31,053 nt of DNA, taken from Lachnospiraceae bacterium. GTDB lineage: Bacteria; Bacillota_A; Clostridia; Lachnospirales; Lachnospiraceae. The stretch spans positions 1 through 31,053 of the forward strand of contig JAEEWS010000035.1 in assembly GCA_016287765.1 (NCBI GenBank). Reading direction: 5' to 3'. The position numbers and the translations under genes are program-made. This document shows, one piece after another, positions 2 through 15,928 of the stretch. Numbering within the stretch: position 1 is the first letter of the stretch; the number at the start of each line of letters is the position of its first letter. The notes under the pieces are model-generated. The model saw only the letters and a program-made list of their open reading frames with translations. It was not told the origin of the DNA and did no database searches.

Positions 2-199
2 GTGCAGATGGTTAAGATTTTTAGCATAGAAGATAGAAAAAGCACATTGGATTATATTCTCTCAACAGCCAAAGATTGTCCTAAGATAGTTTCTTTGGTT
101 CAAGTAGGATCCGGAGCTGAAGGTTTCCGTGATGAAAAGTCAGATTTGGATTTTGTAATAGCATATGAGATGCAAGAACTGCGAAAGGGAAGTGGCTAA
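2..199 (+). pseudogene. Truncated nucleotidyltransferase (aminoglycoside 6-adenylyltransferase-like), N-terminal fragment
   Basis: The frame encodes about 60 residues containing GSGAEGFRDEKSDLDF, the strand-turn-helix signature of the Pol-beta-type nucleotidyltransferase fold (GS followed by a DxD-like SDLDF that binds metal and nucleotide). In relatives such as streptomycin adenylyltransferases this motif lies near the N-terminus of a protein of roughly 280 residues. Here the similarity ends about six residues after the motif and the frame stops. The start is uncertain because the window begins here: GTG at 2 or ATG at 8, and the frame may be open upstream. The helix bundle and C-terminal domain are absent, so the product is not expected to be active. 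Directly after the break the DNA encodes the end of an unrelated HMA domain in another frame. Confidence 0.7.
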
Positions 200-344
200 G
201 GCGATAAATTCGGTAAAAGGATTGTCAGCCAAAGTCAGCCTGGAGAAGAATGAGGCTTATGTGTCCTATGAGAATGAGCCGTGTGAAGAAAAGGCGATAG
301 ATGCAGTACAGAAACTGGATTTTGTTGCCTATTTAAAAGATTGA
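165..344 (+). pseudogene. Heavy-metal-associated (HMA/CopZ-like) domain, 5' truncated
   Basis: From ATG 165 a 59-residue frame reads MRCKNCEREV, then AINSVKGLSAKVSLEKNEA, and ends near AVQKLDFVAYLKD. This is the MxCxxC metal-binding loop, first helix, second strand and last helix of an HMA domain as in copper chaperones or the N-termini of P-type metal ATPases. The first beta strand, which normally precedes MxCxxC, is missing: the frame has a TAG stop at 159-161, and the DNA upstream belongs to the nucleotidyltransferase fragment. I see no ribosome binding site before ATG 165. I infer the remnant of a small metallochaperone gene whose start was lost by a rearrangement near position 160. It could still be made by coupling to the overlapping upstream frame, which stops at 199, but this is unlikely. 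Confidence 0.6.
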
Positions 345-346
345 AA

Positions 347-528: not shown

Positions 529-975
529 ATGAATGAGAAAAAGTTTAGTGTACTTGCTTTAGTGGCATTGATACTTCAGGCAATAATGACCTTGATAGGT
601 ATTATAATGGTGATCATGCAAAAAACGCTGCTCCCAAAGTTTTACGGACAGTTATATGATGCTGACAGAATGATATTTCCGTCGGCACCTGTCTTTATGG
701 TCCTGATGCTGGCAATCTATTTTATTTTCTTCTTTATTTCCAGAGAAGAGGGTAACAAGACCGGGGTCATTCTGCTTGTTGTATTTGCTGTTTTGATCTC
801 TTTATTGAACGGATTCGTAAATACGTTGGTGATCAGATTTTACAGTCGCTTCGGAACTGAAGCTGTTGCGGCGTATACGGCGCTTACTTCACTTATTTCT
901 TCTATACATTTTTTGGGGCTGCCTGCGTCAGTGCTTTTTTACGTCGCTTGCGGCAGATATACGGCTTGTGAGTGA
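529..975 (+). CDS. Small integral membrane protein of unknown function
   Basis: A 148-residue hydrophobic protein that I do not recognise. It starts at an ATG preceded by a good ribosome binding site (AGGGGGAAG). Four membrane segments are likely, at about residues 8-30, 50-70, 77-102 and 114-142. A polar stretch with FYGQLYDADRM lies between the first two and a charged turn (SREEGNKTG) between the second and third. There is no signal peptide cleavage motif and no recognisable catalytic motif. The C-terminus ends abruptly with CGRYTACE. It stands alone: a repeat pair upstream, its own candidate promoter at 435-463 and a hairpin terminator at 1012-1056. Confidence 0.75.
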   Translation: MNEKKFSVLALVALILQAIMTLIGIIMVIMQKTLLPKFYGQLYDADRMIFPSAPVFMVLMLAIYFIFFFISREEGNKTGVILLVVFAVLISLLNGFVNTLVIRFYSRFGTEAVAAYTALTSLISSIHFLGLPASVLFYVACGRYTACE

Positions 976-1011
976 ATGCAGCGGGAAAAGATAATACTTA
1001 AAGCTCTATAG

Positions 1012-1060
1012 AACACGTTAACGTTTTCAGACTTTTGTCATAAACGCTAACGTGTTTTAT
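1012..1060 (+). terminator. Hairpin terminator after the membrane protein gene
   Basis: The arms 1012-1026 and 1042-1056 pair over 15 bp with one wobble, around a 15-nt loop, followed by TTTTATTAATTTT. The position, 37 nt after the stop codon, fits a Rho-independent terminator, although the stem is AT-rich. Confidence 0.6.
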
Positions 1061-1084
1061 TAATTTTAAAAAAGTTTAAACAAG

Positions 1085-1114
1085 AAAAAAGAAGGGCTCA
1101 TGCAGCTCCTTCTT
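1085..1114 (-). terminator. Terminator of the minus-strand RNA
   Basis: Read on the minus strand, AAGAAGG-A-GCT pairs with AGC-CCTTCTT around the loop GCATG (7 plus 3 bp with one bulged A), followed by a run of T. The T run exists only in the minus direction, since plus is followed by a G run. Confidence 0.65.
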
Positions 1115-1269
1115 GGGGGGGAATTTTAAATAAAATATAGATGACCCTAAACATAATATATACAACGATCTTCCTCAGCGACCAATGTATACGCCGTTTA
1201 CTGTGAGCTGATACTCACCTTTATTACTCACAACTTATGACCCTATTCATCAAAACGGCTTCTATATTT
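1085..1269 (-). ncRNA. Candidate structured small RNA divergent from the MerR regulator
   Basis: No convincing gene is present here, but the minus strand has every part of a small RNA unit: a strong promoter (1275-1305), an expected start near 1268 and a terminator (1085-1114). The predicted fold is nested. P1 joins 1262-1269 to 1133-1140 (8 bp, perfect) and begins at the expected first base. P2 joins 1253-1259 to 1193-1199 (7 bp, perfect). P3 is a hairpin of 1214-1218 with 1203-1207. P4 joins 1186-1192 to 1158-1164 (7 bp with one G-U) and has an inner pairing of 1180-1183 with 1167-1170 (one G-U). The two G-U pairs are allowed only if the minus strand is the RNA; on plus they would be A-C mismatches. 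The sequence AGGGTCAT occurs twice in single-stranded parts. I cannot match it to a known riboswitch or RNA family. A GTG-started 18-codon frame (1175-1231) is an alternative reading. Confidence 0.55.
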
Positions 1270-1274
1270 GTTCT

Positions 1275-1305
1275 ATTATAATCTGTACCCTAAGGTACGA
1301 TTCAA
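1275..1305 (-). promoter_or_regulatory. MerR-type promoter with 19-bp spacer and operator (site 1)
   Basis: On the minus strand TTGAAT (1305-1300) and TATAAT (1280-1275) are spaced by 19 bp. That is the lengthened spacer typical of MerR-activated promoters, where the regulator untwists the DNA. The dyad GTACCCTAAGGTAC (1285-1298 as read on plus) fills the spacer. The same sequence recurs with 12 of 14 bases identical at 1402-1415 before the merR-like gene. Confidence 0.65.
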
Positions 1306-1393
1306 TATTATTTTGAAAAAAATATTAATATTTACTTTATATTGTTTTTTCTTTTTACCTTGTTTTTAAAAATATCGGATGATAGAATATCTG

Positions 1394-1424
1394 TTGATAT
1401 CGTCCCCTAGGGTACGAGTTTGAT
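1394..1424 (+). promoter_or_regulatory. MerR-type promoter with 19-bp spacer and operator (site 2)
   Basis: TTGATA (1394-1399) and TTTGAT (1419-1424) are spaced by 19 bp around the dyad GTCCCCTAGGGTAC (1402-1415), ahead of the MerR-family gene at 1461. The dyad has the same orientation relative to its promoter as site 1. I infer autoregulation. The -10 is weak, as expected for a promoter that needs its regulator. Confidence 0.55.
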
Positions 1425-1460
1425 CTTAGTTTAGGCTTGTAATGATCACGGAGTTTAAAA

Positions 1461-2243
1461 ATGAATGTAGAAAATGATTATCTGTTTAAGATCGGAGAAG
1501 TGGTCAAGATCTGCGGAGTGACCCGTAAAGCACTTCTGGTGTATGAAAATGAGGGACTGGTTGTACCGGCCAATAAGGATAAGTACAGTGGCTTTCGTTT
1601 CTATTCGGCTGAGAATATAACCCAGATCAGGTCCATAAAAGCTTTGCAGAAAGCAGGATTATCACTTAAAGAAATAGCCGGTTATCACAATGACCCCGAA
1701 AAAATAGACGAATATCTGAAACGTCTTATAGATCTCAGGGATGAATTGGATCGTAATATAACCAAACTAAAAATACGTTCAATGAAGACAAACAAGATGG
1801 AGATCAGCATAATCAATCTTTCCAAAACAGTCTGTTTTTCAAAAAGAAAGATATGCAGCAGTCTGCCTGAAGTGATCGCACATTTACGTGAAACGGATAT
1901 TGAAGCGGGAAAGACAGGATCCGGATTGAAAGCGGCAGCTCTTTTTGCGATAGTTTCACGGGCGGGGCAGGATAAGATGGACTGGACAAGCTGTATTCCC
2001 ATAGATAAAGGATATGCCGGACCGGAACGGCTGGAAATCCCCGAAGGAGTAGCACTTTGCCTGAATTATCGCGGACCATATGAAAAACTGGATGAGCCTG
2101 TGAAGGTACTGAAAGAATATGCACAGGAGCACAGATATCACCTTATTGGAGCTTTCAGACTTGATTTTGTGGAAGGTCCGCCTACTCTTGGCAATAGGTC
2201 TGAAGATTACCTTACCCGTATAACGGTATTTATCGAAGTATAA
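1461..2243 (+). CDS. MerR-family transcriptional regulator with GyrI-like effector domain
   Basis: A 260-residue protein with the MerR layout. The winged helix-turn-helix spans about residues 8-75 (FKIGEVVKICGVTRKALLVYE, then GFRFYSAENITQI). A dimerising coiled coil follows at about 80-108. The C-terminal domain (about 115-260) resembles the GyrI/AraC effector-binding fold of BmrR- and TipA-like multidrug regulators, with LCLNYRGPYEKL and the ending YLTRITVFIEV. Such proteins bind hydrophobic or cationic compounds and activate promoters with a 19-bp spacer. Two such promoters, with shared operators, lie just upstream: one reads this gene and the other reads the divergent structured RNA. No exporter gene is adjacent, which is unusual for this family. 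The gene ends 7 nt before an inverted repeat pair that separates it from the converging chemoreceptor gene. Confidence 0.85.
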   Translation: MNVENDYLFKIGEVVKICGVTRKALLVYENEGLVVPANKDKYSGFRFYSAENITQIRSIKALQKAGLSLKEIAGYHNDPEKIDEYLKRLIDLRDELDRNITKLKIRSMKTNKMEISIINLSKTVCFSKRKICSSLPEVIAHLRETDIEAGKTGSGLKAAALFAIVSRAGQDKMDWTSCIPIDKGYAGPERLEIPEGVALCLNYRGPYEKLDEPVKVLKEYAQEHRYHLIGAFRLDFVEGPPTLGNRSEDYLTRITVFIEV

Positions 2244-2250
2244 AACTAAA

Positions 2251-2310
2251 ATGACCCTTTTGGGACGGGGTCATAAAGTGTCACCCACAACCCCGTCCCC
2301 AAAGGGTCAT
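2251..2310. repeat. Inverted pair of GGGGACGGGG repeats (copy group B) between convergent genes
   Basis: The outer arms 2251-2271 and 2290-2310 are reverse complements (ATGACCCTTT, then GGGACGGGG) with one mismatch, and an 18-nt centre separates them. The cores are TGGGACGGGGTC at 2261-2272 on plus and AACCCCGTCCCC at 2289-2300. It lies between the stop codons of two converging genes and probably serves both as a hairpin terminator. Confidence 0.8.
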
Positions 2311-2324
2311 AATATTATAGAAGA

Positions 2325-3719
2325 TCATATCTCTGTGATCTCTGTGTCTCCGGTTACGGTGATAGCCTGCTTTAAGGCACCGAACAGGCTCCTTAAAGTA
2401 GTGAAGGTCTCGTAAGCCTTATTGAAGTTATCCGCGGCCAGCTTTTTGTTGCCGTTTTCATTAGCCTGCCAGGAGGCAGTAGCGTATTTGTGGAGTTCTT
2501 CGTGAGTCCTTTCCACATTCTTGAAAGCGGGAGAAGAGGTGATGCGGGGATCGGTCTGTCTGCCCAGCCATTTGCCAAGTTTGCAGCCTGCGGGATTGTT
2601 GAGTTGCTCAAGCTTCAGCTGTTCATAGCCCGCAAGGTTATTAAATACTCTCCAGGTGAAGATGAGATGGTCTATTTCGAATACTATCATCCAATCCAGA
2701 GTATTAAGCTTAGCGCCGCCTCGTGCCAGATCGCTTCTTAATTTGTCCACTGCTCTTGAAATAGTGTATAGGTGCTTACCTGTGGCCATGCATTCGTCTG
2801 CAAGTTTATCATAGCTGTCGGCTATGGAGTCGATGGAGGCGATAACATTTTCCGTAAGCGCGGTCTGGGTGTTTATCTCGTCATATATATGATCTACGGA
2901 TCCGCTTATGGCGTCTATCTGACCGCCCATCTCGTTGATCCTGTCTATGGACTTGTGTACTCTTTCGTTTCCTGCAATAAGCTGATCGGAGGTCATGGTA
3001 ATGGATTCAGTAATGCCGTCGATGCCTTCGATAAGTTCCTTGACATAATCCTCGATCTTTTCTACGGATCTGGTGGTTTCCGAAGAAAGGTCCTTCATCT
3101 GCCCCGCAACTATGGCAAAGCCCTTTCCTGCTTCACCTGCCCTGGCAGCTTCTATGGAGGCATTGAGGGCGAGAAGCCCTGTCTTGTTGGCAATCTTCTT
3201 TACCATATCCACGATCTCGTTTATTTTATTGGCCTTGTCTCTGAAAAGCTCAGTTCTGTCACTGATGGCTTCCACACGTCCTGTAGACTGGTCCACCAGC
3301 TCCACACTTTCGGTCATCTCGTCAATGGAAGCCTGGGACATTTCCATAAGGGCATGGGTATTGTCCTTGATCTTCATTACCGAGTCCTGGATATCCATGA
3401 TGGAATCGCCAATGTCTTTGCTGGCACCACGTATGTCATCTATGGAAACATTTTGGGATTCCACCTGTTCGATCATGGTTTTGACACAGGAACTGTCCCC
3501 GATGGTGACCATGGCCTTATTAAGCTTCATGACCATCTTGTTGTTGGACACGACTACGCTTTTAATAAGCGCATTGTACTGTTTGGCCAGTTCACAGTCC
3601 GTAAAATCGCCTTCCCGGGCATAGGCATACTCTCCGGTCACAGCCTTTTCCATAAGGCTCATAAGCATTTCCCGGTCATTATTGGTTTCTGCTCCGCTTT
3701 TTTTCTTTGAATTAAACAT
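2325..3719 (-). CDS. Soluble methyl-accepting chemotaxis protein with C-terminal CZB zinc-binding domain
   Basis: A 464-residue chemoreceptor with no membrane segment, so cytosolic. A short N-terminal region (1-75) is followed by the helical signalling domain with the conserved hairpin tip at about 175-212 (GLLALNASIEAARAGEAGKG, FAIVAGQMKDLS), which contacts CheA and CheW. At 340-450 lies a chemoreceptor zinc-binding (CZB) domain with the expected ligands His351 (EIDHLIF), Cys379 (CKLGKWL), His406 and His410 (HEELH). Known CZB domains sense zinc or oxidants such as hypochlorous acid through the Zn-Cys core. I chose ATG 3719 because GGAGAGG lies just before it; the frame is open to ATG 3740, which has a poor site. 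No che genes are nearby. The last residues (VTGDTEITEI) are not the pentapeptide that binds CheR. Confidence 0.88.
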   Translation of the reverse strand: MFNSKKKSGAETNNDREMLMSLMEKAVTGEYAYAREGDFTDCELAKQYNALIKSVVVSNNKMVMKLNKAMVTIGDSSCVKTMIEQVESQNVSIDDIRGASKDIGDSIMDIQDSVMKIKDNTHALMEMSQASIDEMTESVELVDQSTGRVEAISDRTELFRDKANKINEIVDMVKKIANKTGLLALNASIEAARAGEAGKGFAIVAGQMKDLSSETTRSVEKIEDYVKELIEGIDGITESITMTSDQLIAGNERVHKSIDRINEMGGQIDAISGSVDHIYDEINTQTALTENVIASIDSIADSYDKLADECMATGKHLYTISRAVDKLRSDLARGGAKLNTLDWMIVFEIDHLIFTWRVFNNLAGYEQLKLEQLNNPAGCKLGKWLGRQTDPRITSSPAFKNVERTHEELHKYATASWQANENGNKKLAADNFNKAYETFTTLRSLFGALKQAITVTGDTEITEI

Positions 3720-3789
3720 AAATACCTCTCCTCTTATCATTTCATCCGACAGATAAATCTATAATAGCAAAAAATCAGTTATAAGAACA

Positions 3790-3812
3790 TAGTAAATTGT
3801 GCTACTTTACTA
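3790..3812. promoter_or_regulatory. Inverted repeat, possible operator between divergent genes
   Basis: TAGTAAA (3790-3796) and TTTACTA (3806-3812) are perfect inverse copies around 9 bp. They lie between the chemoreceptor gene (minus) and the acylation operon promoter (plus). Two half sites of about one helical turn suggest a dimeric regulator; none is identified. Confidence 0.35.
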
Positions 3813-3897: not shown

Positions 3898-6123
3898 ATG
3901 AAGAAGCTTCAATATGTTGTGATCATTGCTGCCATGCTGGCTCTGGCTGCCTTTTACCTTAAGCCTTCTTTTCAAAAAGAAGAGGAGACGGTAAAAACCG
4001 CGGAGGACACATGCACAGTGGCAATAGTTCCTGCGGAAGAGTTTACTGTGGTATCTTCCAATCCCATGAGGGTTAAAAAGGGAGAAAATGCGGAATTTGA
4101 GGTCAGTATCAATGAGAATTACTATTGCGTTGATACTGACCTTTATAGGTGCGTAAATGACAAGATAATTGTAGAAAATGTATCTTCCGACAGAAGTTTT
4201 TATATAAAGACCATCAGAAAATACAATGTAACCGTGGAAGAAGCAAAAAACGGAACAGTAGAGCTTATAAACAACGAGGGGACAAGGTTCTGTGAGGGAG
4301 ATACGGCAGAACTTATTCTTACCCCTAAAGATAATTACCTTATTGAGGGTATCCTTATTAATGATGTGCTTTATCCTGTCAGAAGCGATGGCGGATACAC
4401 ACTGAAGGTTGATGAGGATTGTACCGTCCGCGGCCTCTTTGCCGGTGTCGAGAAGAACTTTGTGCTGGCCAAGAAGAACATAGGCCGGGTGGAAGTCAGC
4501 GGAAACAAAGACTATGGTCGTTTCCTTTATGGTGATGAACTGGTGCTTTCGGTTGTGCCCACAGAAGGGATCATCTTTAAGGGCTGGACTACCGGCGGCT
4601 TTTTAAAGGACGGCGGAGTCATCATCGGTACCGGGGAAACATATGCCTTTACGCTTACCGAGGATACTGAGATCTACGCTAATTTCCTGGATGTGAACAA
4701 CTATTCGGCCTCTTTCGTGGCAGATCATGAAACAGGAGAGGTCAAGGCTTTTGCAACTCTTTCAGCCGATGAATACGGTGAGCTTCCTATTTACAACAAT
4801 GTAAAGAAAAGAGAGGGCTATCTCCTTACGGGCTTCAATACAGAAGCAGACATGAGCGGCGATTCCTACTGCGTGGGAAGCATGTTTGTGATGCCCCATA
4901 ATAACGTTACCTTCTATCCCGAATGGACCAAGTGCGCTGACCCGGATAAGCTGGAATACAGCATTAAGAGCGGAAAGGCAGTGATAAGCGGGATAAGGGA
5001 AGGGGCAGTGGATGAGAACGGTACTCTTTGCATTCCCGATAATATTGACGGCACTGCTGTTTCGGGGATCGGCGCCGATGCCTTTTCGGGTAACAGCGAT
5101 ATCCGTACCCTTATCCTTCCTCCGGGGCTGTCATCTCTGGGCGACCGCGCACTTAAAAACTGTACGAATCTGAAGACCGTATACCTGGTAGAAACCATTT
5201 CTGCCATAGGAAAGGACTGCTTCGCAAACTGTGAGGCTTTCACGGACCTGAGACTCATCCAGTCCTATGCCAAGGTTTATGATCTGGACTATGATTCGGC
5301 GCTTGCAGAAAAATACATGAGGCTTAAAAACACCGAAGGTCCCCGCATCATTCTGGTGGGCGGCTCAAATCTCAGTTTCGGCATAAATTCTGAGATCTTA
5401 AGGAAAGCATTTCCCAAGTATGATGTGGTGAATTTCAGTACCACCTATCTGTACGGCCTTTCACCCCTTCTTGACCTGGTGGATAAAAACGTTCATGAGG
5501 GAGATGTAGTGATCCTGGCTCCGGAGTGCTACTTACAGATGTATTGCGCCAAGGAGACCACCAGTTTCAACAACTGGGAATATGTGGATTGCAATCCCGA
5601 CATGCTCAAGGATATCAACATTAAGAATAATACTGCTTTTCTTAATACCGCACTGACTTTCTTTTACAATAAACGGGTGCATTCACCAAAGAAGGTCTTT
5701 AATTCCAATCCGGTCTATTCCAGATCCGGATTCAATGAATACGGGGACCTGGTCACTGCTCGAACGGGCAATAAAGTGTTGGAGCCCGTGATACCTTATG
5801 CGGGACTAATCACGGATAAAGGAATGAAGAGGATCAATGAGGCCTGCAGGTCCTTTACCGAAAAGGGGGCAAAGTGCTACTTTACCTTTACGTCTCTGTC
5901 CCTTGGCAGCAAGACCGGGGAGCAGGTGGTTAAGGGGGCAAAAAACTATCTTTCTTTACTGGATCAAAAGCTGGATAAGGAAGTGGTCCCGATTATTTCA
6001 GATCTGGAGGATTATCTTTTTGATACATATATGTGCTATGGAATCTGTTATCATCTGACCCTTGAGGGGGCAGAACTCAGAACGGAACAGCTTGTAAAAG
6101 ACCTTTCGGCCTATTTGGAATAA
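3898..6123 (+). CDS. Membrane-anchored SGNH-like protein with InlB-type and BspA-type repeats; probable O-acylation partner, catalytic Asp apparently lost
   Basis: A 741-residue exported protein. An N-terminal anchor or signal (5-20) precedes three to four bacterial repeat (InlB/Flg_new-like) modules at about 45-345, e.g. EGIIFKGWTTGG and GYLLTGFNTEADMSGDSY. A leucine-rich BspA-type stretch follows at about 350-455 (IGADAFSGNSDIRTLILPPG). The C-terminal SGNH/DltD-like domain spans about 460-741, with the nucleophile motif GGSNLSFG (Ser490) and the last block CYHLTLEGAELRTEQ (His719). In the sister protein at 7522 the last block reads YDSNFH, with Asp four residues before His; here that position is Gly715 (YGICYH). 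Activity may therefore be lost or depend on another residue. It is followed after 13 bp by an MBOAT gene, so I infer a role in acetylation of a surface polysaccharide. The ribosome binding site is weak. Confidence 0.75.
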   Translation: MKKLQYVVIIAAMLALAAFYLKPSFQKEEETVKTAEDTCTVAIVPAEEFTVVSSNPMRVKKGENAEFEVSINENYYCVDTDLYRCVNDKIIVENVSSDRSFYIKTIRKYNVTVEEAKNGTVELINNEGTRFCEGDTAELILTPKDNYLIEGILINDVLYPVRSDGGYTLKVDEDCTVRGLFAGVEKNFVLAKKNIGRVEVSGNKDYGRFLYGDELVLSVVPTEGIIFKGWTTGGFLKDGGVIIGTGETYAFTLTEDTEIYANFLDVNNYSASFVADHETGEVKAFATLSADEYGELPIYNNVKKREGYLLTGFNTEADMSGDSYCVGSMFVMPHNNVTFYPEWTKCADPDKLEYSIKSGKAVISGIREGAVDENGTLCIPDNIDGTAVSGIGADAFSGNSDIRTLILPPGLSSLGDRALKNCTNLKTVYLVETISAIGKDCFANCEAFTDLRLIQSYAKVYDLDYDSALAEKYMRLKNTEGPRIILVGGSNLSFGINSEILRKAFPKYDVVNFSTTYLYGLSPLLDLVDKNVHEGDVVILAPECYLQMYCAKETTSFNNWEYVDCNPDMLKDINIKNNTAFLNTALTFFYNKRVHSPKKVFNSNPVYSRSGFNEYGDLVTARTGNKVLEPVIPYAGLITDKGMKRINEACRSFTEKGAKCYFTFTSLSLGSKTGEQVVKGAKNYLSLLDQKLDKEVVPIISDLEDYLFDTYMCYGICYHLTLEGAELRTEQLVKDLSAYLE

Positions 6124-6136
6124 GGGGGGATCGTAT

Positions 6137-7510
6137 ATGAACATCATGTCATTGACATATATAGGGTTTCTTCTTGTGACCTTACTTGTTTACAGGCTGA
6201 TCCCGCAAAGGGCTCGAAAGATCTGGCTTTTCCTCTGCAGCATTCTTTTTTGCGGTCTTGTGTTGCCGCTGCAGACCCTGGGCATGCTTTTGTATGCCTG
6301 GATCGTGCTTGTTCTCGGCAAATTGTTGGGAAGGCATAAAAGTAAGGCCCTTCTTGCCTTCGGCATTATATTAAGCATAGGCTTACTCTACTTCTTTAAG
6401 TATCTGAATTTTACCATGTCGGTCATAGGCATAGACAGGACCTTTAAGATAATTGCCCCTATAGGCATTTCCTATATAGTCTTTCAATGCATCGCCTATC
6501 TTACGGAAGTTTACAGGGAGAAGATCACACCGGTAAGTGAACCCATGGATCTCTTCATTTACATGTTTTTCTTCCCCAAGGTATTGTCAGGCCCCATTGA
6601 ACCGCCGGAAAGATTCATCCCTCAATTGTATGTGCCTGTTAAAAACACCTATAAGGACTATCTGGTTTCCTTTTCCTATATAGTTAACGGCTTTGTGAGA
6701 AAGATGGTGGTGGCGGATTTCCTCGCTGTAGGGGTTGACGCTGTATATGCCTCGCCGGACAAGGCAGACAGGTTTTCGCTCATTTTTGCGGCTGTCATGT
6801 ATTCTTTCCAGATCTACTTCGACTTTTCGGGGTACACCGACATAGCGATAGGATCTGCGGGGATGTTTGGGATAAGGCTTACGCAGAACTTCAACAGACC
6901 CTATCTGGCAACAGGGATCAGGGACTTCTGGAAGAGATGGCACATCAGCCTTTCCACCTGGCTCAGAAATTATATTTACATCCCCCTGGGCGGAAATCGC
7001 AAGGGCTTTGCCAGGAAGCAACTGAATACGTTTATCACCTTTGCGGTAAGCGGTCTGTGGCACGGCGCTTCCCTTACCTACGTCTTATGGGGAGCTTTTC
7101 ACGGTCTGATGCAGGTCATTGAAAATCTGTTCGACAGGAAGAAAATGAAGGAAGACAACCTGTTTATCAAAGGGATCAAAGTGCTTATCACCTTTGTACT
7201 CGTGACCATAGCCTGGATCTTCTTCAGGATACCGGGGATCGGAGATCTTAAAACCTTCGGGCATAGCTTCATACACAACACTCCCGATCTCACGGCAGCG
7301 GTAAAGCTTTGCTGCATGACAGTATCTGCGGGAGTGATCGTATCCCTTGGTTTCCTTTTTTCCGAACTGACCCGGCTCTTTTGCATGAAAAAAGGAAGGA
7401 CCTTGGCAACGCTTTTTATCTGCCTTTTGGATGTATTTCTTATTATCGCCTCCATCGGCTTCTTCCCGGGTAACACGGCAGAGAGCAGTTTTATATACTT
7501 TAATTTCTAA
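6137..7510 (+). CDS. MBOAT-family membrane O-acyltransferase (AlgI/DltB-like)
   Basis: A 457-residue polytopic membrane protein with MBOAT hallmarks: SGPIEPPERFIPQL, then FDFSGYTDIAIGSAGMFGI, RPYLATGIRDFWKRWHISLS and TWLRNYIYIPLGGNR. The catalytic region SGLWHGASLTYVLWGAFHG contains His309 and His322. About ten membrane helices are likely. Family members (AlgI, PatA, DltB) move an acyl group, usually acetyl, across the membrane and hand it to a periplasmic or outer SGNH partner that modifies alginate, peptidoglycan or teichoic acid. Here the gene sits between two SGNH-like genes with 13- and 11-bp gaps, so the three form one operon and probably one machine. AGGGGGGATC overlapping the upstream stop serves as ribosome binding site. 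The polymer is unknown. Confidence 0.88.
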   Translation: MNIMSLTYIGFLLVTLLVYRLIPQRARKIWLFLCSILFCGLVLPLQTLGMLLYAWIVLVLGKLLGRHKSKALLAFGIILSIGLLYFFKYLNFTMSVIGIDRTFKIIAPIGISYIVFQCIAYLTEVYREKITPVSEPMDLFIYMFFFPKVLSGPIEPPERFIPQLYVPVKNTYKDYLVSFSYIVNGFVRKMVVADFLAVGVDAVYASPDKADRFSLIFAAVMYSFQIYFDFSGYTDIAIGSAGMFGIRLTQNFNRPYLATGIRDFWKRWHISLSTWLRNYIYIPLGGNRKGFARKQLNTFITFAVSGLWHGASLTYVLWGAFHGLMQVIENLFDRKKMKEDNLFIKGIKVLITFVLVTIAWIFFRIPGIGDLKTFGHSFIHNTPDLTAAVKLCCMTVSAGVIVSLGFLFSELTRLFCMKKGRTLATLFICLLDVFLIIASIGFFPGNTAESSFIYFNF

Positions 7511-7521
7511 AGATTAAGATT

Positions 7522-8946
7522 ATGAACGAGAGAAAAAACTTATTTAAATTCATATTGTTTTTGATGATCTTTTTGATCTGCTTTGCAGGCATATGCTTTC
7601 TCGGCTGCAAATACCTGTCTGCTCTCAAAAGGGTTTATGACGAGTCATTTTATGCGGGACTTAAGACCAAGTATGACAGATTGACTTCGGTGAAAGGGCC
7701 CAAGATCGTGGTGATAGGAGGCTCCTCCGTGGCTTTCGGAATTGACAGTAAGATAGTGGAGCGGGAAACAGGAATTCCCTGTGTAAACTTCGGACTTTAT
7801 GCGGCCATAGGCTTTAAGCCCATGCTGGATCTGTCAAAGAAGAGCATAGGTGAAGGCGATATTGTGGTGCTGGCACCGGAGCTTTCCTCTCAGATGTATT
7901 CCGGATATATAGGCTACGAGTATCTGACGGATTCGGTGGAAGGAAGACCGGACTTGGCGACTGCTCTGGGAAAGGAGTACGCAAAAGGGTTTCTCTCGGC
8001 TCTTCCCAAGTATTTAAGCCGAAGGAACAGGATCTTAAAAAGCGGGATATCCGTAGATGGTGTATATGCCAACAGCTCCTTTGATGAGTATGGTGATATA
8101 GTCTATTTAAGGAATGAAAATGTGATGAACGGCGGCTATAATAAAACAGATCTTCCGGAGATATCCACCGACATCCTTACAGAAGAATTCTTTGATATGG
8201 TGAATACCTATGCAGAGTATTGCAAAGAGAGGGGAGCGAGCGTATATCTGGGCTTTCCTCCTATGAACGCGCTTTCAGTTAAAGATACAGATGAGGCGCA
8301 GGAGGCTTTCTTAAATAAGCTTAAGGAAGATCTGGACTTTGAGATCCTTGCATCCCTTGAGGATCATATTATGGATCCGGGGTATTTTTACGATTCCAAT
8401 TTCCACACCAATGATCCCGGAACTGTGTATAACACATTGCTCTTGGTAAATGATATAAAGCGAGTGACAGGAAATATGACATTGACTTCCATAGAGATAC
8501 CTGAGCCTCTTGCGGGAGAGGAAGAGGAAGATACCGATAAGGAAATACAGAACGACGGCATCTTTAATTTCATTCTTACGGACAAGGGCATAGTGGTAAA
8601 AGGTCTTACGGAAGAGGGAAAGGCGCTTACGGAACTAAATGTGCCCACAGTACTTGGGGGGTACAATGTATGGGACATCGATTCCTTTGCCTTTGAAGAC
8701 TCCAAAGCTATAAAACTTACGCTTCCGGACGGTATAGGAATAATCCGGGAAGGCATATTAAAAAATGCGGATTCGATAAAAAACGTATACATTTATTGCA
8801 AAAACCTTCCCGAAGTGTCTTCCGACATGCTTTATATGGCTCCGGAGGATGTGGTGCTTTATGTGGAAAAGGACGTATACGGAAAATATGTGACTGACTA
8901 TTTCTGGGGACTTTTCTCCCATAAATTGAAGCCTATGGATGAATAG
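7522..8946 (+). CDS. Membrane-anchored SGNH/DltD-like acyltransferase partner with C-terminal BspA-like leucine-rich segment
   Basis: A 474-residue protein with an N-terminal membrane anchor (about 9-29). The SGNH-like domain (about 55-315) has IGGSSVAFG (nucleophile Ser68), VVLAPELSSQMY and the last block FYDSNFHTNDPG with Asp291 and His295, so the triad looks complete. An acidic linker (AGEEEEDTDKE, about 331-341) leads to a BspA-type leucine-rich segment at 350-470 (WDIDSFAFEDSKAIKLTLPDG). The gene at 3898 carries the same two kinds of module in the opposite order. It is third in the operon with the MBOAT enzyme and is the best candidate for the enzyme that transfers the acyl group onto the target polymer. 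The leucine-rich part may bind that polymer or a partner. The ribosome binding site is weak, suggesting translational coupling. Confidence 0.78.
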   Translation: MNERKNLFKFILFLMIFLICFAGICFLGCKYLSALKRVYDESFYAGLKTKYDRLTSVKGPKIVVIGGSSVAFGIDSKIVERETGIPCVNFGLYAAIGFKPMLDLSKKSIGEGDIVVLAPELSSQMYSGYIGYEYLTDSVEGRPDLATALGKEYAKGFLSALPKYLSRRNRILKSGISVDGVYANSSFDEYGDIVYLRNENVMNGGYNKTDLPEISTDILTEEFFDMVNTYAEYCKERGASVYLGFPPMNALSVKDTDEAQEAFLNKLKEDLDFEILASLEDHIMDPGYFYDSNFHTNDPGTVYNTLLLVNDIKRVTGNMTLTSIEIPEPLAGEEEEDTDKEIQNDGIFNFILTDKGIVVKGLTEEGKALTELNVPTVLGGYNVWDIDSFAFEDSKAIKLTLPDGIGIIREGILKNADSIKNVYIYCKNLPEVSSDMLYMAPEDVVLYVEKDVYGKYVTDYFWGLFSHKLKPMDE

Positions 8947-14251: not shown

Positions 14252-15442
14252 TTGGCATATTTAAGGAGTATATTTAACAGGAAAAGCATATTTTGGTTTG
14301 TGTGTGCGCTTGTTCTTTGGCTGGCACTTTTCGTAGATCTTGTTATCTCCGTAAGGAGCGAAAATTCCTCTTTTTCTTATTCCTTTGCAGGCGATTCGGA
14401 CAGAGGTTCTCTTCCCGTAGATGTAAGTATAAATGTATCCCAGTCCTGGGATGATTATATCGGAGATGTACAGATCAAAGGAGCGGAATATGACGGTACT
14501 GTAGTCAACGGATCGGGTAAAGAGATCAGAAACTGGATACTTACAATAAAGCTTCCGGAAAGTGACGGACAGATCGATTCCAGCTGGAACGGGACTTATG
14601 AGAAAACCGGTAACGCGATAGATTATTATCCCGATAAGAATGTATATGTCATTGAAAAGGACAGTTTCAGAACTTTTGGTTTCATCCTTAAATCCGCAGA
14701 AGTTTATAATGACTTCGCTTTTGATATTTCGGGACGATATGTTACCTATAAAGAAGACTATCCCATGTATTGGGCTATAGTGTATATTACGATCGCATAT
14801 GCGGTTGCCTTTATAATGTATGCCTCCATGCAGATAAAAATGGAGATGCGAAGAAGAAGCGACGATGAGATAATCAGACAGACCATGATGGTCTTTGTAA
14901 ACTCCATCGATGCCAGAGACGAGTACACAAAAGGCCATTCCGTAAGAGTATCCGAATATTCTTCGGCCATTGCGAAAGAAATGGGCTATTCGGATGATGA
15001 AGTCAGGAAGATCGGATATATAGCTCTTCTTCATGATTGCGGTAAGATCATGATCCCGGGTAGTGTTTTAAAGAAGCCCGGGAAATTAACGGAAGAAGAG
15101 AAGCGTGAGATCCGGCAACACACCGTTATGGGCGGAAAGATGCTGGAGGGATTCACCTCTTTGGAAGGCGCCAGAGAAGGAGCCCTATACCATCATGAGT
15201 ATTATAACGGAGAAGGATATCCGGAGGGGTTAAAAGGTGAACAGATACCTAAGCCGGCAAGGATAATATGTGTGGCGGATTCCTTCGATGCCATGAACTC
15301 CGACAGATGCTACAGAAAGCATTTGGGAAGAGAGAGGATAGAGGCGGAACTCAGAAATAATAAAGGCATTCAGTTCGATCCGGAAGTTGCGGAATGTATG
15401 TTAAGACTTATAGAAACCGGAAAATTGCATGTAATGGATTGA
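14252..15442 (+). CDS. HD-GYP c-di-GMP phosphodiesterase with an extracytoplasmic CBM2-like domain
   Basis: About 396 residues. Membrane helices at 12-33 and 172-192 flank an outer domain. That domain (about 65-148) has the pattern of a family 2 cellulose-binding module: NWILTIKLPESDGQIDSSWN, later FRTFGF, with Trp at the expected sites. A short linker leads to a cytosolic HD-GYP domain (about 205-396) with HDCGK (His261, Asp262), HHEYYNGEGYPEGL (from His314) and RIICVADSFDAM. HD-GYP proteins hydrolyse c-di-GMP. I infer a sensor that links carbohydrate contact to c-di-GMP level, but the binding surface is unproven. The start is uncertain. TTG 14252 has a perfect AGGAGG six bases upstream; ATG 14204 and ATG 14234 lie in the same frame with poor sites. 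Confidence 0.78.
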   Translation: MAYLRSIFNRKSIFWFVCALVLWLALFVDLVISVRSENSSFSYSFAGDSDRGSLPVDVSINVSQSWDDYIGDVQIKGAEYDGTVVNGSGKEIRNWILTIKLPESDGQIDSSWNGTYEKTGNAIDYYPDKNVYVIEKDSFRTFGFILKSAEVYNDFAFDISGRYVTYKEDYPMYWAIVYITIAYAVAFIMYASMQIKMEMRRRSDDEIIRQTMMVFVNSIDARDEYTKGHSVRVSEYSSAIAKEMGYSDDEVRKIGYIALLHDCGKIMIPGSVLKKPGKLTEEEKREIRQHTVMGGKMLEGFTSLEGAREGALYHHEYYNGEGYPEGLKGEQIPKPARIICVADSFDAMNSDRCYRKHLGRERIEAELRNNKGIQFDPEVAECMLRLIETGKLHVMD

Positions 15443-15450
15443 GATCAAAA

Positions 15451-15481
15451 GGTCAAGGGACAGCCCTTGATCTTTTTTTTT
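15451..15481 (+). terminator. Terminator after the HD-GYP gene
   Basis: GGTCAAGGG (15451-15459), ACAG loop and CCCTTGATC (15464-15472): 9 bp with one G-U, then a run of nine T. Confidence 0.9.
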
Positions 15482-15500
15482 CTCGGAATAAAAAAAACAC

Positions 15501-15557
15501 AATACCACTTGACACATTATACTATGTGATGTATAGTATGGTGCGTCAAGTGGTATT
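15501..15557 (+). promoter_or_regulatory. 57-bp palindrome containing the PadR operon promoter
   Basis: The outer arms AATACCACTTGAC (15501-15513) and its exact inverse (15545-15557) enclose a second dyad ATACTAT/ATAGTAT. TTGACA (15509-15514), 17 bp and TATAGT (15532-15537) form a promoter within the palindrome. A bound regulator would cover both hexamers, so I infer repression by the PadR protein encoded just downstream. The start of transcription lies in the right arm, so the full hairpin would not be present in that RNA. Confidence 0.7.
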
Positions 15558-15604
15558 GAAGGGCTGAGAATATATATGCCTGACTTTATCAAAAGGAGGT
15601 TTTA

Positions 15605-15928
15605 ATGGAAGCGCAATTCAGAAGAGGAATACTGGAAGCCTGCGTTCTGGCGGTCCTTGAAAAGAGCGAATCCTACGGCTATCAACTGGTAAAAGATGTA
15701 AACCGGTTTATAGAGATAAGCGAATCTACCATGTATCCCATACTCAGGAGGCTTGAACAGACCGATCAACTGGAGGTCTTCAGTATGGAGCACAACGGAA
15801 GGCTCAGAAAGTATTACAGGATCACGGACGAAGGAAGAAAAAAGATCACGGAGTTATTGGAAGAGTGGAAGGAGATCGTTAAGATCTACCGGTTTATAAT
15901 TAATGAGAGAGAGGGAGACCATGAATAA
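15605..15928 (+). CDS. PadR-family transcriptional regulator
   Basis: A 107-residue PadR protein: FRRGILEACVLAVLEKSESY at the start, YGYQLVKDVNRF, then the recognition and wing region STMYPILRRLEQTDQLEVF and LRKYYRITDEGRKKI. A short C-terminal helix serves dimerisation. It has a perfect AAAGGAGG site. The members of this subgroup sit in front of DUF1700 and DUF4097 genes in many Firmicutes and repress their own operon. The 57-bp palindrome over the promoter is the likely operator. Its stop codon overlaps the start of the next gene by eight bases. Confidence 0.92.
   Translation: MEAQFRRGILEACVLAVLEKSESYGYQLVKDVNRFIEISESTMYPILRRLEQTDQLEVFSMEHNGRLRKYYRITDEGRKKITELLEEWKEIVKIYRFIINEREGDHE

Follow-up and report, generated by a model that had tools for sequence, protein, structure and literature searches.

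In the parts of the literature drawn on here, the MerR-type regulator EcmrR is described as acting on a promoter with a 19-bp spacer and a pseudo-palindrome (PMC8113463), and BmrR as activating transcription by distorting the promoter DNA (PMC7722741). Here, a 31,053-nt stretch of the genome of a Lachnospiraceae bacterium (contig JAEEWS010000035.1, positions 1 to 31,053; hereafter, the window) was analysed, in which a merR gene lies next to a divergent, minus-strand promoter that leads into a short stretch with a terminator-like end instead of a gene. The window has in common with BmrR and EcmrR a MerR helix-turn-helix (HTH) domain, a GyrI-like domain and a promoter with a 19-bp spacer. However, the MerR protein of the window shows 17-22% identity to the full-length chains of EcmrR, BrlR and BmrR at the top of its Foldseek list, its family carries four invariant cysteines (48/48) and has mostly surface proteins or regulators as partners, and in the window there is no partner gene. 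The MerR/surface-protein loci of its relatives (L066 of Falcatimonas, L061 and L021) have the same regulator family and operator type as the window but contain the divergent protein gene that is absent from it. We favour the explanation, with a probability of about 0.52, that the window holds a MerR-activated divergent promoter orphaned by the loss of its target gene, with the short transcript as a left-over.

A conserved MerR-type promoter diverges from merR

The minus-strand promoter consists of a -35 element TTGAAT (1300..1305) and a -10 element TATAAT (1275..1280), separated by a 19-bp spacer (1281-1299) that contains the operator O1, a dyad of the sequence GTACCTTAGGGTAC (1285..1298, strand not assigned). 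In a promoter-plus-dyad scan, whose score is the sum of box matches and dyad pairs, this promoter scored 17; when the 260 nt upstream of merR were dinucleotide-shuffled 1000 times, all shuffles stayed below this value, and the five other hits at 15 or more in the 31-kb window scored 15-16. The original prediction, made from the DNA letters and the translated reading frames, had described a MerR-type promoter with exactly these boxes and spacing, and this promoter is real.

A protein search with the MerR of the window gave 218 relatives at an E value of 1e-10 or better, of which 120 were listed; two MerRs (P0002 and P0003) are 63-65% identical to that of the window. Scanning genomes with the family alignment located 58 merR loci, and an earlier genome scan with the single MerR protein had located none. 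No relatives of MerR were found in viral contigs, and the search for an orthologue in seven genomes of the genus gave distant MerRs only (best E 1.2e-10). Promoters were counted in the 57 loci with at least 200 nt upstream; L032 (44 nt upstream) was left out, and L111 as well as L077-L081, inspected under an assumed orientation, were not counted. The divergent promoter reached a score of at least 15 in 51 of these 57 loci, at least 16 in 46 and at least 17 in 29, compared with 4, 1 and 0 loci on the plus strand and with 2.3%, 0.4% and 0% of 1140 shuffles. Six loci scored below 15 (L019, L034, L049, L057, L065 and L072), and a weaker version could be recognised by eye in L019, L049, L057 and L072. 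At the aligned -35 position, most relatives have TTGACT, TTGAAT or TTGCAT. Because 51 of the 57 loci carry the promoter versus 2.3% of the shuffles, it is a property of this MerR family.

Another operator-like dyad, O2 (GTCCCCTAGGGTAC, 1402..1415, strand not assigned), which is absent from the original prediction, lies nearer to merR, 45 nt ahead of the gene and ~117 bp from O1. Between both dyads, a candidate merR promoter (TTGTTT-17-TAGAAT, 1360..1388, plus strand) was read by eye and is unlisted by a simple scan; from O2, MerR probably controls its own promoter. With two dyads flanking a candidate merR promoter, O1 might also serve mainly to control merR, minus-strand transcription being incidental; we consider this improbable, as O1 sits in a near-consensus minus-strand promoter with 19-bp spacing, just as it does in the 51 relatives.

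A search with the operator pattern revealed one site in the genome G029, beside merR, and two sites ~3.8 kb apart in the genome G054, both at the merR locus, while the strict pattern had no site in five other merR-bearing genomes or in three genomes of the genus. The sites in these two genomes suggest that a MerR of this type acts as a local activator. The promoter sequence of the G054 sites also occurs in L066, where two surface-protein-like open reading frames (ORFs) of ~800 aa (1394-3802 and 5175-7586) flank merR on either side. An operator promoter copy in G054 (L113) precedes an ORF whose start resembles that of the second surface-protein-like ORF of L066.

The divergent gene of relatives is absent from the window

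The genes behind the promoter were counted in 54 loci with an assigned promoter (L032, L034, L057 and L065 were left out). Within 320 nt, an ORF of at least 60 aa led by a ribosome-binding-site-like motif was present in 49 of the 54 loci versus 63 of 540 shuffles, and one of at least 100 aa in 45 of the 54 versus 12 of 540. Among the five loci not counted at 60 aa, L027 and L041 carry a 115-aa ORF at a distance of 148-149 nt that looks PadR-like by eye, and a few ORFs, those of L049 and L050, may be chance frames. A signal-peptide-like stretch was recognised by eye at the start of about 30 of the 54 first divergent ORFs. The Pfam tally, to which 45 of the 54 loci contributed their divergent ORFs, was led by S-layer homology (6), response regulator receiver (5), LytTR (5), DUF4379 (3) and Listeria-Bacteroides repeat (3) families, with the remaining families in one or two members each. 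An exporter had been expected as the usual partner of such a regulator; as judged from these Pfam matches and signal-peptide-like starts, the usual partners in this family are mostly secreted or surface proteins together with some LytTR response regulators, not exporters. Across the loci L019-L076, the near-constant operator fronts very unlike genes, which include those for surface proteins, LytTR regulators, DUF4379 proteins, a LemA-family protein, a polysaccharide deacetylase and others.

On the minus strand of the window, no ORF of at least 40 aa begins in the 700 nt that follow the -10 element, in contrast to the 49 of 54 relatives with a divergent ORF. The view of this locus as a MerR without its divergent gene therefore holds, because the promoters of the relatives lead into genes and that of the window does not. 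The region thereby lacks the downstream same-strand gene that a riboswitch or another cis-acting leader would have. Partner loss seems to occur elsewhere in the family, since a normal divergent gene is missing from three other loci. In L025 the promoter leads to a convergent ORF, in L058 the place of the gene is taken by a stretch resembling a gene remnant, and in L076 a leader similar to the one in L061 gives way to a hairpin and then, as judged by eye, to a convergent ORF.

A secreted-looking protein of 741 aa with BspA-type leucine-rich and InlB-type repeats is encoded elsewhere in the window (3898-6123). Proteins of this kind are often divergent partners of this MerR family, and no good operator promoter was found near this gene.

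The regulator and its possibly orphaned promoter

The merR gene (1461..2243, plus strand) encodes 260 aa with a MerR HTH and a GyrI-like effector domain. The HTH matches PF13411 with 54.9 bits (cut-off 21.6), and the Pfam GyrI-like match, at 23.6 bits, is slightly below its cut-off of 26. With the predicted structure (mean predicted local distance difference test score, pLDDT, 84.8), Foldseek placed EcmrR (6xl5) first, followed by BrlR and BmrR; the effector domain of this model matched the C-terminal domain of EcmrR (6wl5, TM 0.78 by target), CtaZ and CTR107. EcmrR was also the best PDB profile match (E 8.1e-25, residues 10-259). The PF13411 match and the structural match to the EcmrR effector domain support the earlier assignment of the protein as a MerR regulator with a GyrI-like domain. 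Cysteines 125, 132, 178 and 200 of the effector domain, all four of which are kept in the window, show no variation across the 48 aligned family members, and a metal, cofactor or redox role of these residues is possible.

By analogy with BmrR and EcmrR, activation by the window MerR should be ligand-dependent: a ligand-bound MerR dimer would untwist the 19-bp O1 spacer and so turn the promoter on. Polymerase would then make just a non-coding transcript of ~186 nt that ends at the hairpin terminator, and MerR at O2 may restrain its own gene. The former target gene, whose counterparts in relatives code in most cases for secreted or surface proteins, or for LytTR response regulators, would have been lost, leaving a short RNA that presumably has no dedicated job. 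This explanation builds on three observations: the anatomy of the promoter and operators, the fact that the family conserves them, and the missing gene. It is slightly favoured because L076, L058 and L025 are likewise without a normal partner and because nothing on the RNA clearly beats chance. Several points weigh against an orphaned promoter. The promoter and O1 are intact and merR retains its four cysteines, which fits a recent orphan and a working pair alike; moreover, the terminator lies directly behind the short stretch, and no gene remnant was recognised within the 186 nt. If the locus is a relic, it shows a near-constant operator standing before very different genes, and what stays once the target goes.

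The short transcript, its fold and its terminator

The short transcript is predicted to span ~186 nt of the minus strand (1083..1268), with its start (1268 +/- 1) and end guessed from the promoter and the terminator. The predicted fold (1134..1268, minus strand) comprises P1 (1268-1261/1141-1134), P2 (1259-1253/1199-1193), P3 (1218-1213/1208-1203) and P4 (1192-1186/1164-1158, with an inner helix 1184-1180/1170-1166). The nested arrangement of P1-P4 that had been proposed for this RNA is indeed the minimum-free-energy structure of 1268-1125 (-32.4 kcal/mol), and P1 begins at the guessed first base, ~1268; however, its stability does not clearly exceed chance. The z values obtained for the minus strand were -2.07, -2.24 and -2.16, with 26 of 1000 shuffles equally stable in the last case. 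When the minus strand of the window was cut into 430 tiles of 144 nt, 10.9% of them had a z of -2.07 or lower. The long-range closing helix was equalled or surpassed in 127 of 500 shuffles. The claim of an RNA structured beyond chance is thus not supported by the shuffle tests of the fold and its closing helix. The plus strand folds with stronger z values (-4.46, 0/200 shuffles; -4.06, 0/1000 shuffles), so that the G-U pairs once taken as an argument for the minus strand fail relative to composition, and the strand assignment rests on the promoter and the terminator.

At the end of the unit, a terminator-like hairpin (1114-1089) with a U run occupies 1085..1114 of the minus strand. With -12.1 kcal/mol and a z of -2.40 (5 of 200 shuffles were as good), it is a plausible terminator, although a simple terminator scan did not list it. 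Beyond it lies a convergent neighbour (529..975, plus strand, 148 aa) with no Pfam or NCBIfam match. A 3' hairpin of this gene (~1008-1060, plus strand, z -6.22), probably its terminator, separates it from the short transcript. Short frames do occur in the transcript, e.g. ATG frames of 8 and 18 codons, and it might encode a very small peptide or act as a leader with terminator read-through into something beyond. We regard this as very unlikely: no ORF of at least 40 aa starts in the 700 nt mentioned above, and past the terminator the minus strand runs antisense to the convergent gene with its strong 3' hairpin.

Searches for relatives of the short RNA

None of the 4227 families of Rfam 15 matched the window at the gathering score; the Rfam hit that the original prediction had named as a refuting outcome thus did not arise. 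The three sub-threshold matches (E up to 5), to DISC2, mir-7131 and snoR07, were far below the cut-offs and were discarded; the one to a microRNA family, at 1008-1060, was taken as chance. Using blastn, only three matches of 24-42 nt were found in the genomes of 195 relatives, and two of these lay in the promoter portion of the query. The match in G029 corresponds to the promoter at a genuinely homologous locus, that in G024 fell in DNA that looked like coding sequence, and that in G175 covers 26 nt (query 152-177) in a genome in which no MerR relative was found. No relatives of the RNA were found in plasmids or phages, nor was one exact 26-base pattern found in viral contigs.

A covariance model was built from the window sequence alone. 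Among 64 sources (63 MerR loci and the window), it retrieved the window itself and a chance-level match in L063 (19 bits, E 0.43). It retrieved nothing from 397 family genomes in a run without a positive control, and the tool cautions that such an empty result shows nothing. Regarding the genus synteny of the flanks, a chemotaxis protein gave generic matches only, and the matches listed for 2-2320 fall in repeat palindromes.

A dedicated small RNA as an alternative

A different explanation is that the MerR sensor turns on a dedicated, trans-acting RNA of 186 nt. The RNA carries a run of seven C (C7, 1115..1121, minus strand), whose bases are unpaired with a probability of 0.76-0.86 each and which is a possible seed for pairing with G-rich ribosome-binding sites; of 23 start regions that were inspected in the window, 2 have G5 or G6, those at 529 (CAGGGGGAAG) and 6137 (AAGGGGGGAT). 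RoxS of Bacillus subtilis is described, in the passages of its report drawn on here, as using C-rich regions to pair with G-rich target sequences (PMC5419742). The RNA of the window resembles RoxS/RsaE, C-rich small RNAs of Gram-positive bacteria, in having a single-stranded C-rich region, but differs from them in that no sequence relation is shown, no Rfam family matches at the gathering score and it would be controlled by a MerR regulator.

Other features also point towards a dedicated RNA. The promoter and regulator are intact, the gene is absent, and the stretch has a terminator of its own; in addition, the short RNA contains two copies of the 9-mer TAGGGTCAT, which is absent from both strands of the rest of the window. 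The operator sites of G029 (one) and G054 (two) all lie at the merR locus, and since this type of regulator seems to act locally, the short RNA would be the main target of MerR here. On the other hand, no homologue of the RNA was found by blastn in the 195 genomes, in the 63 MerR loci or with the covariance model in the 397 genomes. The fold does not clearly exceed chance, a direct repeat of a 9-mer or longer arises in 98 of 2000 shuffles, and the window shows no enrichment of C or G runs of length seven (2 observed versus 4.6 expected); tested against shuffles or a Markov model, the repeat, the C7 run and the closing helix are at or near chance. Furthermore, the operator pattern that points to local action is strict, leaving five other merR-bearing genomes without any site. 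Taken together, we treat a dedicated small RNA as a tentative and rather unlikely explanation.

In its fullest form, which we find doubtful, the surface-protein gene would have been replaced by a 186-nt riboregulator with C7 as its seed, which would be the sole local target of MerR, so that the presence of a compound would be read out through pairing with mRNAs. If the RNA works, a drug sensor of the GyrI-like MerR kind would here act via a small RNA, for which searches of open-licence PMC papers listed no recognisable precedent.

Other features of the window

GC-rich palindromic repeats at 349-419 and 2251-2311 (GACCCCCGGGGACGGGG... and ATGACCCTTTTGGGACGGGG...) are multi-copy in the genus. 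With 2-2320 as the query, G001 gave 141 matches, G005 66, G002 14, G004 13 and G003 3, and G006 and G007 gave none; among the matches listed, all lie within 342-428 or 2267-2311. A strong inverted repeat (CACTTGACACATTATAC...GTATGGTGCGTCAAGTG, z down to -8.1) is located at 15408-15624, ahead of an ORF at 15903. Finally, the beginning of the window (2-345) contains a 65-aa frame (2-199), after which codon-like sequence continues in a different frame, and resembles, by eye, a broken or truncated nucleotidyltransferase-like gene.
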